Notes under the pieces: model-generated
Seen by the model: the letters and a program-made list of their open reading frames with translations, nothing else
Databases searched by the model: none
Told to the model about the DNA's origin: nothing
Assembly (NCBI RefSeq): GCF_030296055.1
Contig: NZ_AP027370.1
Coordinates: forward strand, 372,001 to 436,000
Length of the DNA stretch: 64,000 nucleotides
Direction: 5' to 3'
From: Hydrogenimonas cancrithermarum
GTDB taxonomy: Bacteria; Campylobacterota; Campylobacteria; Campylobacterales; Hydrogenimonadaceae
Made by a program: the position numbers and the translations under genes
In this document: one piece after another, positions 192 to 4,638 of the stretch
Layout: each line of letters starts with the position of its first letter
Numbering within the stretch: position 1 is the stretch's first letter

Positions 192-224
192 CCGGGGGAT
201 GTTTTGGAACAATAGCATCGTATA
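192..224 (+). promoter_or_regulatory. Candidate ECF-sigma autoregulated promoter
   Basis: The 14 bases CCGGGGGATGTTTT (192-205) are followed after 13 bases by CGTATA (219-224). The same 14 bases plus CGTATA, with a 12-base gap, recur at 4202-4233 ahead of the His/Gly-repeat gene. An upstream block plus a CGT-containing downstream block at -35/-10 spacing is typical of ECF promoters. The sigma start codon lies about 30 bases downstream. The motif pair is seen; assigning it to this sigma factor is inference. Confidence 0.6.
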
Positions 225-255
225 ATAGCATAGACGAATAGAAGGTAAAGGCTAT

Positions 256-810
256 ATGGAAATCGTGGATTCACAAATTCTTGACCGGCTCATCGATGGC
301 GACAAAAAGTGCTGGAACCGGTTTGTCGTAGAGTCGGCATCGCTGATCAGAGCCATGGTATACAAAACGATGTCTGCCTATACCACCGTGAATCCATCGG
401 AGGTCGATGATGCCGTGCAAAACGTCTATTTCAGACTTTTGAAAGATGATTGCAGGTTGCTCAAAAGCTACGACAGAGAGAAGGCATCGCTTTCAACCTG
501 GCTCGGGCTCATCAGCCGAAGCGTGACGATCGATCTGATTCGAAAAAGAAGAAACCATCTTTCGCTCGACGAAGATCTGGCATCACCGCAACAGCATGCA
601 ATTCCCACCGATGGCACCATCGATTTGCCCAAAGGGTTGCTTTCCGAAAGACAGGAGCTGATACTGCGCATGCTCTTCGACAAAGAGATGGGGCCGGATG
701 AAGTCGCGGATGTTTTAGGCGTAGAGATTCAAACCGTCCGTAGCGCGAAACACAAGGCAATCGAAAAACTGAGAAGATATTACGAGGCCACACATAAGGA
801 AAAATCATGA
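256..810 (+). CDS. ECF-type RNA polymerase sigma factor
   Basis: This 184-residue protein is the usual size for an extracytoplasmic-function sigma factor. The N-terminal half has the sigma-2 pattern (EVDDAVQNVYFRLLK, then STWLGLISRSVTIDLIRKRR). The C-terminal part has a sigma-4 helix-turn-helix (residues about 130-175, with EVADVLGVEIQTVRSAKHKA). It should direct RNA polymerase to a small regulon and be held by the membrane anti-sigma factor encoded next. ATG at 256 follows AAGG. Its stop overlaps the next start by ATGA. The promoter-like block upstream also lies before gene 4288, suggesting autoregulation. The inducing signal is not readable from the sequence. Confidence 0.9.
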   Translation: MEIVDSQILDRLIDGDKKCWNRFVVESASLIRAMVYKTMSAYTTVNPSEVDDAVQNVYFRLLKDDCRLLKSYDREKASLSTWLGLISRSVTIDLIRKRRNHLSLDEDLASPQQHAIPTDGTIDLPKGLLSERQELILRMLFDKEMGPDEVADVLGVEIQTVRSAKHKAIEKLRRYYEATHKEKS

Positions 811-1280
811 ATGAAAAAGCTCTCTGGGAAGCATTCAAAAACGACAAAAACGCCGTTTTGCAACAATGCCCCGACATCAACGACCTGGCCGCCTATATCG
901 ACAATCGGCTGAGCGACGATGAAAAGAAGAAGATGGAAGAGCACCTCAACAACTGTCCGAAGTGTCTGGAGAGTGTGCTTGCCATAAAGCAGTTGCAATA
1001 CGACATCCCCGCGCATCTGGAAGATATTTCCAAAGCACAGGCTCTTTTGGTTGCAAAATCTACCGCCAATGAACCTACAAAAAGGTTCCCCGCTTCATGG
1101 ATGGCCGCATCGGTGGTTTTCGTTCTGCTTTCGTTCGGCGGCTATGTCGCGGGAAAAGGCACCTATATGGCAACGGATGAGACACTGCAGGCTTTTTTGG
1201 AAAACGACTTGCAACCCATCGCTTCGGTTATGGGTGAAACTACGATACCTGACTTTTTCGAATTGGGAGAGATACAATGA
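807..1280 (+). CDS. Membrane zinc-finger anti-sigma factor
   Basis: This 157-residue protein has an N-terminal anti-sigma zinc-finger (ZAS-like) signature. It shows the H-x3-C-x2-C core in EEHLNNCPKC (about residues 46-55) with an extra upstream Cys in QQCPD. A single membrane helix follows at about residues 99-117 (WMAASVVFVLLSFGGYVAG), and the C-terminal tail of about 40 residues should be periplasmic. It would hold the co-encoded ECF sigma factor at the membrane until a periplasmic signal releases it. It overlaps sigma upstream and the CnrX-like gene downstream by ATGA, fixing the start and implying coupled translation. Confidence 0.85.
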   Translation: MNEKALWEAFKNDKNAVLQQCPDINDLAAYIDNRLSDDEKKKMEEHLNNCPKCLESVLAIKQLQYDIPAHLEDISKAQALLVAKSTANEPTKRFPASWMAASVVFVLLSFGGYVAGKGTYMATDETLQAFLENDLQPIASVMGETTIPDFFELGEIQ

Positions 1281-1756
1281 AAACGAAACTGCTTTTGATC
1301 CTTTTGGCGGCTTCACTGGGGTTCAATATTTTTTTCACCATCGGCTATTTCAGTGCCAAAAAGCATCTTGGCAAGGCAAAAACGTTTGAAGCGCGGGTTG
1401 CCCTGGCAGCCGAAAAACTCTCTCTCGATGAACGACAGAAAAATCAGCTCTTTTCGATCATTAAAACATCGCGCGAAAAAATACAGCAGCTGAAACGGGA
1501 TCAGAAAAAAACCGTACAGCTCTTCAAGTCGGAATTCGAAAAGTCGTCCCCCGATATCGAGAGACTCAAAAAGGCAATGCGTAAGATCGAGAACGAGCGA
1601 AAGCGGGTGCGAAGCGAAATCGCCGCACAATGGAAAACGTTCTTCGAATCACTCTCGGACAAACAGCGAAAGAGAGTCATGAACATGCTTGCCAGACATC
1701 CGGAACTCAGAAAAAGACTTCTGATACCCTCCATGGGAACAGACCGTGCGATTTGA
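1277..1756 (+). CDS. CnrX/CpxP-like periplasmic sensor (Metal_resist type)
   Basis: This is a 159-residue protein with an N-terminal hydrophobic anchor or signal (residues 5-26), then a long charged helical region. A segment LSLDERQKNQLFSIIK resembles the LTxxQ element of the Spy/CpxP and metal-resistance (CnrX/NccX/ZraP) families. In Cupriavidus CnrYXH, a membrane-anchored CnrX sits with an ECF sigma and an anti-sigma and senses Ni/Co. The same three parts are adjacent here, so a sensor role is a reasonable inference. A Spy-like chaperone is the alternative. No clear metal-ligand cluster is visible. It overlaps both neighbours (ATGA upstream, 11 bases downstream). Confidence 0.7.
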   Translation: MKTKLLLILLAASLGFNIFFTIGYFSAKKHLGKAKTFEARVALAAEKLSLDERQKNQLFSIIKTSREKIQQLKRDQKKTVQLFKSEFEKSSPDIERLKKAMRKIENERKRVRSEIAAQWKTFFESLSDKQRKRVMNMLARHPELRKRLLIPSMGTDRAI

Positions 1757-3014
1757 CGAAGCAAGACATCTGCTCAGCCGTACATCGTTCGGCATCCGTC
1801 CAGAAGATCTGACAACGATGCAAACTTTTTCATACGAAGAGGGGGTGGAAAGTCTACTCGACAAACATTATGATGCAACAGCGGTCGAAGCTCCGCAATG
1901 GATTGGTGAACCACTTTTAAAAAGACGCATCAAAGATCTTTCCCCGACAGAGCGTGCCGCACTCAGACAAAAACAGAGGAAGAAAGGCATCGAACTCAAA
2001 ATCTGGTGGTATGAACGCATGGTAACGGCGGAAGACCAGCTCAGGGAGTGGATGACACGTTTCTGGCACGGTCATTTCACATCCGAACTCAAAAAGGTCA
2101 AATGGCCCATTTTGATGTATCGCCAGAACGTCCTCTTTCGAAAACATGCTCTTGGAAATTTCGCCACGCTGCTGCATGCCGTAGCCAAAGACGGCGCGAT
2201 GATCATCTACCTCGATACGATCCGCAATAAAAAAGGGCATCCCAACGAAAATTTCGGCAGAGAGCTTCTGGAACTTTTCACGCTCGGAGAGGGGCACTAC
2301 AGCGAATCGGACATCAAAAACGCAGCCCGCGCTTTTAGCGGATGGAGCCTGAAACGCAGCAGCGGCGCATTCCGTTTTGTCGGGAAGAACCACGACGATG
2401 GAATAAAATATTTTTTGGGTCAGACGGGTCGTTTTGGCGGTGAAGAGATTATCGACATCATCCTCAAGCAGTACCAAACGGCCCGTTTTGTCTCGGGAAA
2501 GCTTTTCAAAGCCCTGGTCGGGAAAGAACCCGATCCGCTAACGGAAAAAGAGATCGCCGGCATCTTTTACGACAGCGGCTATGCCATCAAACCTCTGCTT
2601 CGTGCCATTCTTCTTTCCGATGCATTCAGAAACCCGAAAAACCGCGGCATGATGATCAAGTCTCCTGCGGAATTGATCGCCGGGACGATGCGTGCTTTCA
2701 ATCTCTCGCCAAAAACCCCAAAAAGAGTGGCAAGACTCGGGAAGATGCTCGGAGAGGACCTCTTCGATCCGCCCGGCGTCAAAGGCTATTTCGAAGGCGA
2801 AGCGTGGATCACAACCGCTTCGCTTCTGATGCGGATCAATCTGATGCATAACGCTGCCCGCCGGATACGAGACAAACTCCCTGCCGGGTACGAAAATGGC
2901 AATCGGCTCAAAGGGCTGCTTCTTCCGACAAATCCAGCAAAACCGTTTCCCTCCGGATCTGCCGAAAGTATCCTGGCGGCATGTCTGACGGACCCGGCCT
3001 ACCAGCTCAAATAG
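1746..3014 (+). CDS. DUF1800 family protein
   Basis: This is a 422-residue protein of the DUF1800 family. The N-terminus ARHLLSRTSFGI matches the family's typical opening, followed by EWMTRFWHGHFTS, a DGAMIIYLDT region and NENFGRELLELFTLGEGHY, a strongly conserved block. Family members are usually encoded beside DUF1501 proteins, as here, but their function is not established. The start is GTG at 1746, inside the preceding gene, so translation is probably coupled. No signal peptide or membrane helix is visible although its partner carries a Tat signal. It may travel with the partner or stay cytoplasmic. Confidence 0.85.
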   Translation: MRFDEARHLLSRTSFGIRPEDLTTMQTFSYEEGVESLLDKHYDATAVEAPQWIGEPLLKRRIKDLSPTERAALRQKQRKKGIELKIWWYERMVTAEDQLREWMTRFWHGHFTSELKKVKWPILMYRQNVLFRKHALGNFATLLHAVAKDGAMIIYLDTIRNKKGHPNENFGRELLELFTLGEGHYSESDIKNAARAFSGWSLKRSSGAFRFVGKNHDDGIKYFLGQTGRFGGEEIIDIILKQYQTARFVSGKLFKALVGKEPDPLTEKEIAGIFYDSGYAIKPLLRAILLSDAFRNPKNRGMMIKSPAELIAGTMRAFNLSPKTPKRVARLGKMLGEDLFDPPGVKGYFEGEAWITTASLLMRINLMHNAARRIRDKLPAGYENGNRLKGLLLPTNPAKPFPSGSAESILAACLTDPAYQLK

Positions 3015-3024
3015 GAGTAAAAAA

Positions 3025-4191
3025 ATGGATCGGAGAGATTTCATCAAACTGGGCACCACCGCCGCTTCTGCACTCTTTTTCAATTCTGCTCTGTTTGCCG
3101 ACGTGAAGAGAGACAACGAAAAAATTCTCATTCTTTTGGAACTCAAAGGCGGAAACGACGGTCTGAATACAATCGTACCGACAGGCAGCGAATATACGAT
3201 CTATCGGAACGTACGTCCGACACTCGCGCTGGATCGTACCGATATCCTTCCGCTCGACGCCAAATCGGGCATGCACCCATCGTTGCAGTCGCTCTATCCG
3301 TTGTGGAAATCGAAAACCATGGCCATTGTGCAAGGTGTCGGATACCCGGATCCGAACCGTTCGCATTTCAAATCGATCGCCATCTACAACACCGCCACTT
3401 CGGACAACCACACCCACAGAGGATGGATCGACCGAATATTCGAACCTATCAGACCGGATGAAGCCATTTTTGCACGAGGAATCGCAATGGGAAACCGTGA
3501 ACTCGGCCCACTATACGGAAAGAGGGTTCGGGCCGTCACGATGGACTCTCCCAAACGCTATTTAAAGCAGGCCCAAATCGTGGAGGCCATAGAAAAACGG
3601 ACATCTCATCCTATGCTCTCCCACATCATCGATATCGAAAACGAGATCGCAACCACTTCAAAAGCGCTTGAAAGCAGACTCCACGGGCACTGCAGCACGT
3701 TGACCGGTTTTCCCAAAACGAAACTCGGCCGCGATTTCAAACATATCGCACAACTGATCGCCTGCGGTGTCCGGACACCGGTCTATAAAGTGACGCACGA
3801 TGGATTCGACACCCACGTCAACCAAAAAGAGAAACACGGCCGACGGCTGAAGGAGTTTGCCGATGCCGTCGCATCGTTTGAAAATACGATGAAAACAATC
3901 GGTCGATGGAACGATGTCGTCGTCATGACCTACTCGGAATTCGGCCGTAGAGTTGCCGAAAACGGCGGCCGTGGAACGGACCATGGCACGGCATCTGTGC
4001 AGTTCGTTTTCGGCGGCAGCGTCAGGGGTGGATTCTACGGCAGAGAGCCCTCGCTCGAAAGACTCGACAAAAACGGCGATCTGATCTACACCACCGATTT
4101 CCGATCACTCTACAAAAACGTTGCGCTCCACTGCTTCGGCAAAACCCCCGATTTTCTCGCTTCCTACCCTTTTCTAAATATTTTTTCATGA
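3025..4191 (+). CDS. DUF1501 family protein, Tat-exported
   Basis: This 388-residue protein starts with a twin-arginine signal: DRRDFIKLG, then a hydrophobic stretch ending near SALFADV (about residue 26). It should be folded in the cytoplasm and exported by Tat. The family block YSEFGRRVAENGGRGTDHGT lies near residues 295-315. DUF1501 is distantly related to the alkaline phosphatase/sulfatase fold. Its substrate is unknown. It follows DUF1800 by 10 bases and is the last gene of the ECF operon. The pairing suggests the two proteins act together in the envelope. Confidence 0.85.
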   Translation: MDRRDFIKLGTTAASALFFNSALFADVKRDNEKILILLELKGGNDGLNTIVPTGSEYTIYRNVRPTLALDRTDILPLDAKSGMHPSLQSLYPLWKSKTMAIVQGVGYPDPNRSHFKSIAIYNTATSDNHTHRGWIDRIFEPIRPDEAIFARGIAMGNRELGPLYGKRVRAVTMDSPKRYLKQAQIVEAIEKRTSHPMLSHIIDIENEIATTSKALESRLHGHCSTLTGFPKTKLGRDFKHIAQLIACGVRTPVYKVTHDGFDTHVNQKEKHGRRLKEFADAVASFENTMKTIGRWNDVVVMTYSEFGRRVAENGGRGTDHGTASVQFVFGGSVRGGFYGREPSLERLDKNGDLIYTTDFRSLYKNVALHCFGKTPDFLASYPFLNIFS

Positions 4192-4201
4192 ATTTTTCCA
4201 A

Positions 4202-4233
4202 CCGGGGGATGTTTTCCATCTCCCGTACGTATA
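4202..4233 (+). promoter_or_regulatory. Second copy of the ECF promoter motif
   Basis: CCGGGGGATGTTTT (4202-4215) is followed after 12 bases by CGTATA (4228-4233). This matches the site at 192-224 in both blocks, while the sequence between the blocks differs. It starts 11 bases after the DUF1501 stop and lies about 55 bases before the start of the His/Gly-repeat gene. That makes the gene a likely direct target of the ECF sigma factor, transcribed separately from or in addition to the operon. Confidence 0.6.
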
Positions 4234-4287
4234 AAGAGTAAGAACCCATCGAAGATGGGATCTATCCAACACCCAAAGGAGAAAAAA

Positions 4288-4638
4288 ATGAAAACGACAA
4301 AACTTATGGCAGCGACCCTGGCGATCGGCGCATTGCTCTGTGCACCCTCTTTGATGGCAAAAGAGGGCAAGGTTCATGGCAAAGGAAGGGTTCATGGCAG
4401 CGGTGCCATTCACGGAACCGGCGTAGCCCATGGCAAAGGTGCGTTCAAAGGAAGCGGTACCGCCCACGGAAGCGGTGTTGTCATCTATCGCGGAAAAGAT
4501 GGGAAGATTCATCATAAACGAGGAACCGGTACCGTTTCGGGCAAAGGCATCGTCATCGGTAAAGGTACCGTCGCAGGAAAAGGCAAAGGTATCGGCAAAG
4601 GATGGGCAGCGGGAAAAGGCGGAGCCAAAGGCTTCTGA
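4288..4638 (+). CDS. Small secreted His/Gly/Lys-repeat protein
   Basis: This 116-residue protein has a clear signal peptide (residues 1-24, cleavage after SLMA). The rest is built on a six-residue period, x-H-G-x-G-x, with His at residues 30, 36, 42, 48 and 60 (Lys replaces it at 54). It then passes into GKG repeats. The mature chain is strongly basic, with almost no acidic residues after residue 26. I recognise no family. Regular His suggests metal binding; Gly and Lys could equally suit a matrix or polyanion-binding role. ATG at 4288 follows AAAGGAG, preferred over an in-frame ATG at 4255. A copy of the ECF promoter motif lies upstream and a strong hairpin downstream. Confidence 0.75.
   Translation: MKTTKLMAATLAIGALLCAPSLMAKEGKVHGKGRVHGSGAIHGTGVAHGKGAFKGSGTAHGSGVVIYRGKDGKIHHKRGTGTVSGKGIVIGKGTVAGKGKGIGKGWAAGKGGAKGF
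4372..4476 (+). repeat. In-gene tandem hexapeptide-coding repeat
   Basis: These 18-base units encode variants of V-H-G-K-G-R / V-H-G-S-G-A / I-H-G-T-G-V / A-H-G-K-G-A and so on. His codons are spaced exactly six codons apart, apart from one Lys substitution. Codons vary between units, so the repeat is old or selected at protein level rather than a fresh slippage array. Confidence 0.7.

Follow-up and report, generated by a model that had tools for sequence, protein, structure and literature searches.

An extracytoplasmic function sigma factor operon with DUF1800 and DUF1501 genes, and a promoter-like motif shared with a Gly/His-rich repeat protein, in Hydrogenimonas cancrithermarum

The operon and its promoter-like motif

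We analyzed a stretch of 64,000 nt from Hydrogenimonas cancrithermarum, referred to below as the window, which belongs to a genome of 2.38 Mb in total. Positions 256 to 4638 carry, on the + strand, genes for an extracytoplasmic function (ECF) sigma factor, an anti-sigma factor, a candidate periplasmic sensor, one member each of the families DUF1800 and DUF1501, and a small secreted protein, here called HG. An earlier note, made from the sequence alone, had placed six genes at these positions; the positions hold, and family scans agree with the assignments for five of the six. It had also named DUF1800 and DUF1501, rather than efflux pumps, as the operon partners of the sigma factor, and both families are indeed found above their cut-offs directly 3' of the sensor gene. 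The features are as follows.

194..225, + strand: promoter-like motif of the sigma operon, GGGGGATGTTTT-N13-CGTATAA, ~30 bases 5' of the sigma start codon
256..810, + strand: ECF sigma factor, 184 amino acids (TIGR02937, 56.5 bits, cut-off 42.9)
807..1280, + strand: anti-sigma factor, 157 amino acids (zf-HC2, 33.8 bits, cut-off 22.2)
1277..1756, + strand: periplasmic sensor candidate of the Spy/CpxP/CnrX superfamily, 159 amino acids (LTXXQ, PF07813, 25.0 bits, cut-off 24.3)
1746..3014, + strand: DUF1800 (PF08811) protein, 422 amino acids, GTG start (350.5 bits, cut-off 26.1)
3025..4191, + strand: DUF1501 (PF07394) protein, 388 amino acids, N-terminal RRDFIK (101.4 bits, cut-off 27)
4204..4234, + strand: second copy of the promoter-like motif, GGGGGATGTTTT-N12-CGTATAA, between DUF1501 and HG
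4288..4638, + strand: HG, a secreted Gly/His/Lys-rich protein with six-residue periodicity, 116 amino acids

The genes are tightly packed. Sigma and anti-sigma overlap by 4 bases, anti-sigma and sensor by 4 bases, and sensor and DUF1800 by 11 bases; DUF1501 follows DUF1800 after 10 bases, and HG follows DUF1501 after 96. The sigma protein matches Sigma70_r4 (35.4 bits) and Sigma70_r2 (31.4 bits), both above their cut-offs, and it consists of regions 2 and 4 only, as is characteristic of ECF (group 4) sigma factors.

Both the sigma operon and HG are preceded by CCGGGGGATGTTTT, followed after 12-13 bases by CGTATAA (the coordinates 194-225 and 4204-4234 exclude the leading CC). In the whole 2.38-Mb genome this strict pattern occurs at only two sites, one 5' of sigma and one 5' of HG, and the looser GGGATGTT-N13..18-CGTATAA at only the same two. 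Base composition predicts ~0.02 matches to the looser pattern, and a reversed-pattern control gave 0 matches across the genome. We then extended the comparison to a set of 60 genomes, consisting of the window's own and 59 related ones, which also served for the HG comparisons below. Here GGGGATGTT-N13..18-CGTATAA was found at five sites (control, 0): two in the window genome, one in the relative G003 and two in the relative G016. All five stand 5' of a sigma or HG gene, the G003 site 5' of its HG, and the G016 sites 5' of its sigma gene and of its HG; the sigma and HG genes of G016 were in fact first located through the motif search alone. The earlier assignment of HG to the same regulon is thereby supported, since HG has its own copy of the sigma-operon motif and this copy is conserved in relatives. 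As judged from sequence, co-regulation of the operon and HG is well supported, and the two sites would be expected to act as promoters.

Distribution of the gene order

A profile search for HG identified it in four of the 60 genomes (G000, G003, G008 and G016), and the HG proteins of G003, G008 and G016 are 63-83% identical to that of the window. Identity between the window and G003 is 83% for HG, 59% for DUF1800 and 55% for DUF1501. The contig of G008 begins 16 bases 5' of HG, where the promoter region is unreadable. G016, a complete genome, has a sigma factor 63% identical to the window's, followed by the anti-sigma factor, the sensor, about ten codons of a DUF1800 start, and then directly the second motif and HG. 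From this DUF1800 remnant we deduced that the DUF pair was once present in G016 and has since been deleted. Because the pair can be lost, HG appears to be the sigma factor's most constant target.

To place the operon more widely, a DUF1800 profile was run against 84,980 species genomes, bacterial and archaeal. Among the matches listed, 587 of 592 stretches encode a DUF1800 relative, and the best 80 of these 587 confirmed stretches, which are the closest relatives, were used. Loci were counted by profile searches over all open reading frames (ORFs), and upstream context was scored in the 70 of the 80 loci with at least 2.5 kb 5' of DUF1800. The anti-sigma profile itself matched three of the 80 loci; the remaining intervening ORFs were assigned by position.

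Of the 70 loci, 10 share the order: a sigma gene, whose product has 39-43% identity with that of the window, an ORF for a membrane protein, the sensor and DUF1800. DUF1501 comes next in eight of the 10, and the other two (L042, L077) end within ~50 bases of, or inside, DUF1800. Two further loci, L037 and L047, contain the sensor and are cut before the sigma position. All of these loci are proteobacterial, from Reyranella (most of them Reyranella-type Alphaproteobacteria), Rhodospirillales and Alphaproteobacteria, with L050 and L069 classified as Proteobacteria only. Because the order recurs in unrelated genomes and the motif stands at only two sites in 2.38 Mb, the arrangement goes beyond chance. 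In a DUF1800 tree of 83 rows, built by a quick method, the sigma-linked rows fall into three areas (window/G003, a Reyranella clade, and L035/L037). The deep forks of this tree are open, its 'none' rows G003 and L103 are cut upstream and its 'ECF' rows L037 and L047 show the sensor only; it shows neither a single origin of the operon nor several.

The full motif pattern gave 0 matches in the 80 DUF1800 loci. GGGGGATGTT alone matched once, at L057:4139, 59 bases 5' of the sigma gene of Reyranella sp. CPCC 100927 and with a different -10 region; it is the only such 10-mer in these loci, and the -35 element may have been kept across phyla. Other Reyranella-type upstream regions resemble one another and not the motif.

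Outside the sigma-linked loci, a divergent OmpR gene is present within 2.5 kb in 35 of the 70 loci (L041-L109, Betaproteobacteria), in the same place as the sigma gene elsewhere, and we count it as a link to the envelope in those bacteria. The one OmpR member that was checked scores above the NCBIfam OmpR cut-off, and its neighbor matches best with EnvZ, below cut-off. In 17 of the 35 loci a small protein lies in between, with a hydrophobic N-terminal part and the motif [MLI]-[ST]-[PA]-[ED]-[EQ]-[RQ]; none of the five that were scanned matches Pfam LTXXQ. The small protein of L058 has EF hands. As one inherited arrangement, the OmpR loci amount to one line of evidence.

Some DUF1800/DUF1501 loci are organized differently. 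On a Thermus thermophilus plasmid (L032:1000-3005), the two parts of a split DUF1800 gene flank an IS982 transposase, and DUF1501 comes directly after. Loci L020, L021 and L113 (G049; Thiotrichaceae for L113) hold several DUF1800/DUF1501 pairs, either in tandem or within one genome, which suggests repeated duplication. The window genome itself has three more DUF1501 genes (L022:3395-6439 and L023:3931-10267, corresponding to C1 ~27.4-30.4 kb and 1,878.9-1,885.3 kb), each after a gene for a lipoprotein-like protein of ~540-550 amino acids that has no Pfam match. These lipoprotein-like proteins may represent a second kind of DUF1501 partner.

Properties of the encoded proteins

A profile built from 12 sensors matched Spy best (4.8e-10), followed by CnrX (1.3e-4), NccX (1.8e-4) and CpxP (2.8e-4), and the window sensor belongs to the CpxP/Spy (LTXXQ) superfamily by its score. 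With the Metal_resist model, the window sensor reaches 27.8 bits, just under the cut-off of 29.2, and the G016 sensor passes with 43.1 bits. The window sensor has an N-terminal hydrophobic anchor and a strongly basic mature part, with 34 Lys/Arg vs 17 Asp/Glu. The mature parts of the 12 sensors contain 0-4 His and no Cys (one His in the window, none in G016), and HxxxH was found in 0 of the 12. In the alignment with CnrX, its histidine in the ILHEAV stretch and its VHVFEM stretch fall opposite non-ligand residues of the sensor profile; the CnrX metal-binding residues used for this comparison are mostly those that we take to be its ligands. The earlier description of this protein as 'CnrX-like', in the sense of a metal sensor, could not be upheld: the sensors are closest to Spy, and CnrX is only a distant member of the superfamily. 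From ligand content and the profile comparison, CnrX-type metal sensing was rejected, as no His-based site was found when searching with a ligand set that is in part presumed. The analogy to a metal sensor is weak, and metal as a signal by another route is possible, given that HG lies beside a pump gene in two relatives (see below).

The anti-sigma factor contains HLNNCPKC at residues 46-53 of P0002, which is the HxxxCxxC signature of the zinc-binding anti-sigma (ZAS) domain, followed by one hydrophobic stretch taken by eye as a membrane helix. Its profile matches a chain of entry 3hug at 4.7e-4, and TIGR03988, the RsrA model, matches P0002 at 1.1e-5 (25.5 bits, below the cut-off of 62.5). Only two of the 12 anti-sigma rows, the window and G016, have HxxxCxxC; the proteobacterial proteins align but do not carry it.

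Within the phylum, relatives of the sensor (E 1e-3) were detected in five of 397 genomes, the window's own and four with weak matches (5.9e-4 to 8.5e-4), and none were found on plasmids. Sigma relatives were detected in seven of the 397, the window's own and six that match only over about residues 101-177, and plasmids contributed 13 records at 24-32% identity.

HG has a signal-like N terminus and, in the three proteins compared, 27-30 Gly and 7-9 His in ~90 mature residues. The window protein has 23 Gly-Gly pairs at lag 6, which reflects a strong six-residue period. Neither Pfam nor NCBIfam has a family that scores above its cut-off with HG, and no relatives were found in the 397 phylum genomes besides its own (a list that does not include G003, G008 and G016) or in the 80 DUF1800 loci. 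A search of solved structures gave one low-complexity match (0.0073), which was not used.

An AlphaFold2 model of the DUF1501 protein has a mean pLDDT (predicted local distance difference test score) of 92. Its best Foldseek matches are sulfatases, LtaS, EptC and YejM, and VIA-align superimposes 243 residues on 7cba, a snake-venom phosphodiesterase, with a Z of 18.2 and a root-mean-square deviation (rmsd) of 3.4, followed by nucleotide phosphodiesterases and alkaline phosphatases. Across 42 rows, D45, S113, H114, D262, H264, E305, D319 and H320 are invariant, and the order of all of these except E305 is, we presume, that of alkaline-phosphatase-superfamily members. The model thus predicts that DUF1501 is an enzyme of the alkaline phosphatase superfamily. 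The NPP phosphodiesterases, LtaS, EptC and sulfatases of that superfamily share the predicted fold and, presumably, the set of Asp/His and Ser residues that is invariant in DUF1501; in contrast to them, DUF1501 is paired with DUF1800, and at E 0.1 no protein of solved structure is related to it in sequence. The DUF1800 model (pLDDT 94) gave no Foldseek match at E 0.001, and the search found no sequence relative with a structure. Phycobilisome proteins, linkers where named, fill the top eight VIA-align rows for this model with Z values of 4.2-5.3, which is below the trust level and serves as a lead only.

The two proteins also differ in their export signals. The DUF1501 protein begins MDRRDFIK and carries a twin-arginine signal, MDRRDFIKLGTTAASALFF, with RR followed by a hydrophobic stretch; R3 and R4 are conserved in at least 90% of the 42 rows, and the curated Tat models score below cut-off. 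The DUF1800 protein of the window has no export signal of its own. Classification of the signals covered 77 of the 80 loci and has three known weak points: the DUF1501 of L096 was labeled 'no_hydrophobic' despite its MNRRDFLQYAS start, that of L046 comes from an overlong ORF, and L103 is cut by the contig. In nine of the 77 loci DUF1800 has fewer than 18 residues before its domain, and all nine have an RR-bearing DUF1501 (L096 by eye). Conversely, DUF1501 has three residues before its domain in six of the 77, and five of these have an RR-bearing DUF1800, the sixth (L103) being cut by the contig start. These reciprocal signals suggest that DUF1800 and DUF1501 are exported as a folded complex on one signal.

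A possible envelope-stress switch and competing explanations

The earlier note had likened the sigma, anti-sigma and sensor genes to the CnrYXH system of Cupriavidus metallidurans. The trio with its overlaps stands; its identity with CnrYXH is not supported. Both systems comprise, in one apparently autoregulated operon, an ECF sigma factor, a membrane anti-sigma factor and a helical periplasmic sensor, the two sensors belonging to one superfamily. However, the order here is sigma, anti-sigma, sensor; the anti-sigma factor has a zinc-finger domain, which to our knowledge CnrY does not have; the sensor is without the metal-ligand residues and is nearer to Spy; and the targets are DUF1800/DUF1501 and HG, with no resistance-nodulation-division (RND) pump adjacent to the operon. 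The order cnrYXH is as given in the available text of PMC4803752, and Met123 of CnrX is named as a metal ligand in that of PMC7689651. By analogy, the released-sigma logic of CnrYXH, to the extent that these two texts describe it (PMC4803752, PMC7689651), would be a fair model for the mechanism. Spy and CpxP resemble the sensor in that Spy is the best profile match, the LTXXQ cut-off is passed and the protein is basic and helical; here, unlike Spy and CpxP, the sensor is membrane-anchored and encoded together with an ECF sigma factor and an anti-sigma factor. Spy and CpxP act beside a two-component system. The system is a variant of the ECF/anti-sigma/periplasmic-sensor switch with uncharacterized outputs, and its promoter-like motif is now defined.

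We propose that the locus encodes a self-regulated ECF switch that responds to envelope stress through a very small regulon, whose outputs would be a co-exported DUF1800/DUF1501 enzyme and HG, and we put the probability of this reading at roughly 55%. At rest, the membrane anti-sigma factor would hold the sigma factor, with the Spy/CpxP-like sensor maintaining that state. Titration of the sensor by a ligand, for which misfolded or anionic material of the envelope is the likeliest candidate, would release the sigma factor, which would then read two promoters, that of its own five-gene operon and that of HG. DUF1800 and DUF1501 would be exported folded, as a complex, via the single twin-arginine signal, and DUF1501 might be a metal-dependent enzyme that acts there on phosphate or sulfate esters of the envelope or extracellular matrix. 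HG would be secreted and serve as a repeat protein at the cell surface.

Several observations weigh against this proposal. Sixty of the 70 DUF1800/DUF1501 loci have no such sigma gene, and in G016 the DUF pair is lost and hence not essential to the switch. G003 has DUF1800, DUF1501, HG and the HG motif, yet no sigma match; its contig begins 124 bases 5' of DUF1800, where a partial frame was not recognized as the sensor. No locus lacks both export signals, an absence that is suggestive but not significant, since independence predicts only ~0.7 such loci. Finally, in G016 and G008 HG has a pump gene of the CusA/CzcA family (above cut-off) as its tail-to-tail neighbor, which fits a metal signal equally well. 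In both genomes (L125:6897-12291 and L138:392-5850, respectively), the genes tail to tail with HG comprise the pump together with adaptor-like and outer-membrane-factor-like genes.

A metal switch of the CnrYXH kind would have the metal reach either the sensor or the anti-sigma zinc site, with the HG histidines binding or buffering metal and the DUF pair serving as a metalloenzyme module. Besides the pump, this explanation can draw on the Metal_resist score of the G016 sensor, the His content of HG, and the HxxxCxxC anti-sigma factors of the window and G016. We nevertheless consider it unlikely: the mature sensors have neither HxxxH nor Cys and few or no His, the CnrX histidines (for a ligand set largely assumed) have no counterparts in the sensor profile, and the G016 pump, which is convergent to HG, is without a motif copy (G016 has exactly two sites). 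The same HxxxCxxC domain would also fit a zinc-finger anti-sigma factor of the RsrA type that senses redox or thiol stress, with the Spy-like protein merely a chaperone made from the operon, and the sub-threshold TIGR03988 match and the 3hug match point the same way. This seems improbable, however, as the 10 proteobacterial operons keep the arrangement without HxxxCxxC and all retain the sensor. That the genes are neighbors by chance or shared transfer, with no functional role for DUF1800/DUF1501 as sigma-factor outputs, would be in line with the persistence of the sigma trio and HG without the DUF pair in G016 and with the many DUF1800 loci without the sigma gene. Against this, the window and distant Proteobacteria share the gene order, the window genes overlap or are closely spaced, and the DUF1800 remnant indicates that G016 formerly had the pair; we regard this explanation as very unlikely.

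The envelope-stress switch can be set in a wider frame, which we offer tentatively, as a possibility that we would not yet favor. DUF1800/DUF1501 would be a two-part enzyme exported folded, with the RR signal on either partner by lineage, and would form an envelope-stress output wired either to an ECF sigma factor and Spy-like sensor (here and in the Reyranella type) or to OmpR/EnvZ (Betaproteobacteria). In this genus, the sigma factor would have been extended to the lineage-specific HG hexapeptide-repeat protein, now its most constant target.

The two DUF families are widespread but uncharacterized. Among 5.39 million open-access papers, DUF1800 is mentioned in four, DUF1501 in 10 and both in two. 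According to the available text of PMC5122149, a DUF1800/DUF1501 pair lies beside bacterial chitin synthases in a predicted shared operon, and a functional link was proposed. As here, both families are side by side and DUF1501 has a twin-arginine signal; in contrast, the pair described there has a chitin synthase and a sugar epimerase as its partners, and that text describes no sigma factor or sensor. DUF1800 appears only in tables in the accessible parts of PMC3597751 and PMC7563939, and in the open-access literature, as far as its texts were available, we found no assigned function for DUF1800 or DUF1501. Nor did we find a link of the pair to an ECF sigma factor in open-access papers (subscription journals, preprints and supplements being outside the scope), or anything relevant in the open-access literature on the ECF group or Reyranella sigma factors. 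The compact stress regulon, the identifiable promoter, the predicted fold and the predicted co-export make the function of these families testable, in a regulon of just two genomic sites and with a sister genome that has cleanly lost the enzyme pair by natural deletion.

The operon is flanked by a reverse-strand block of rnpA, yidD, yidC, jag and mnmE-like ORFs, assigned by eye, and by a convergent clpB-like gene.

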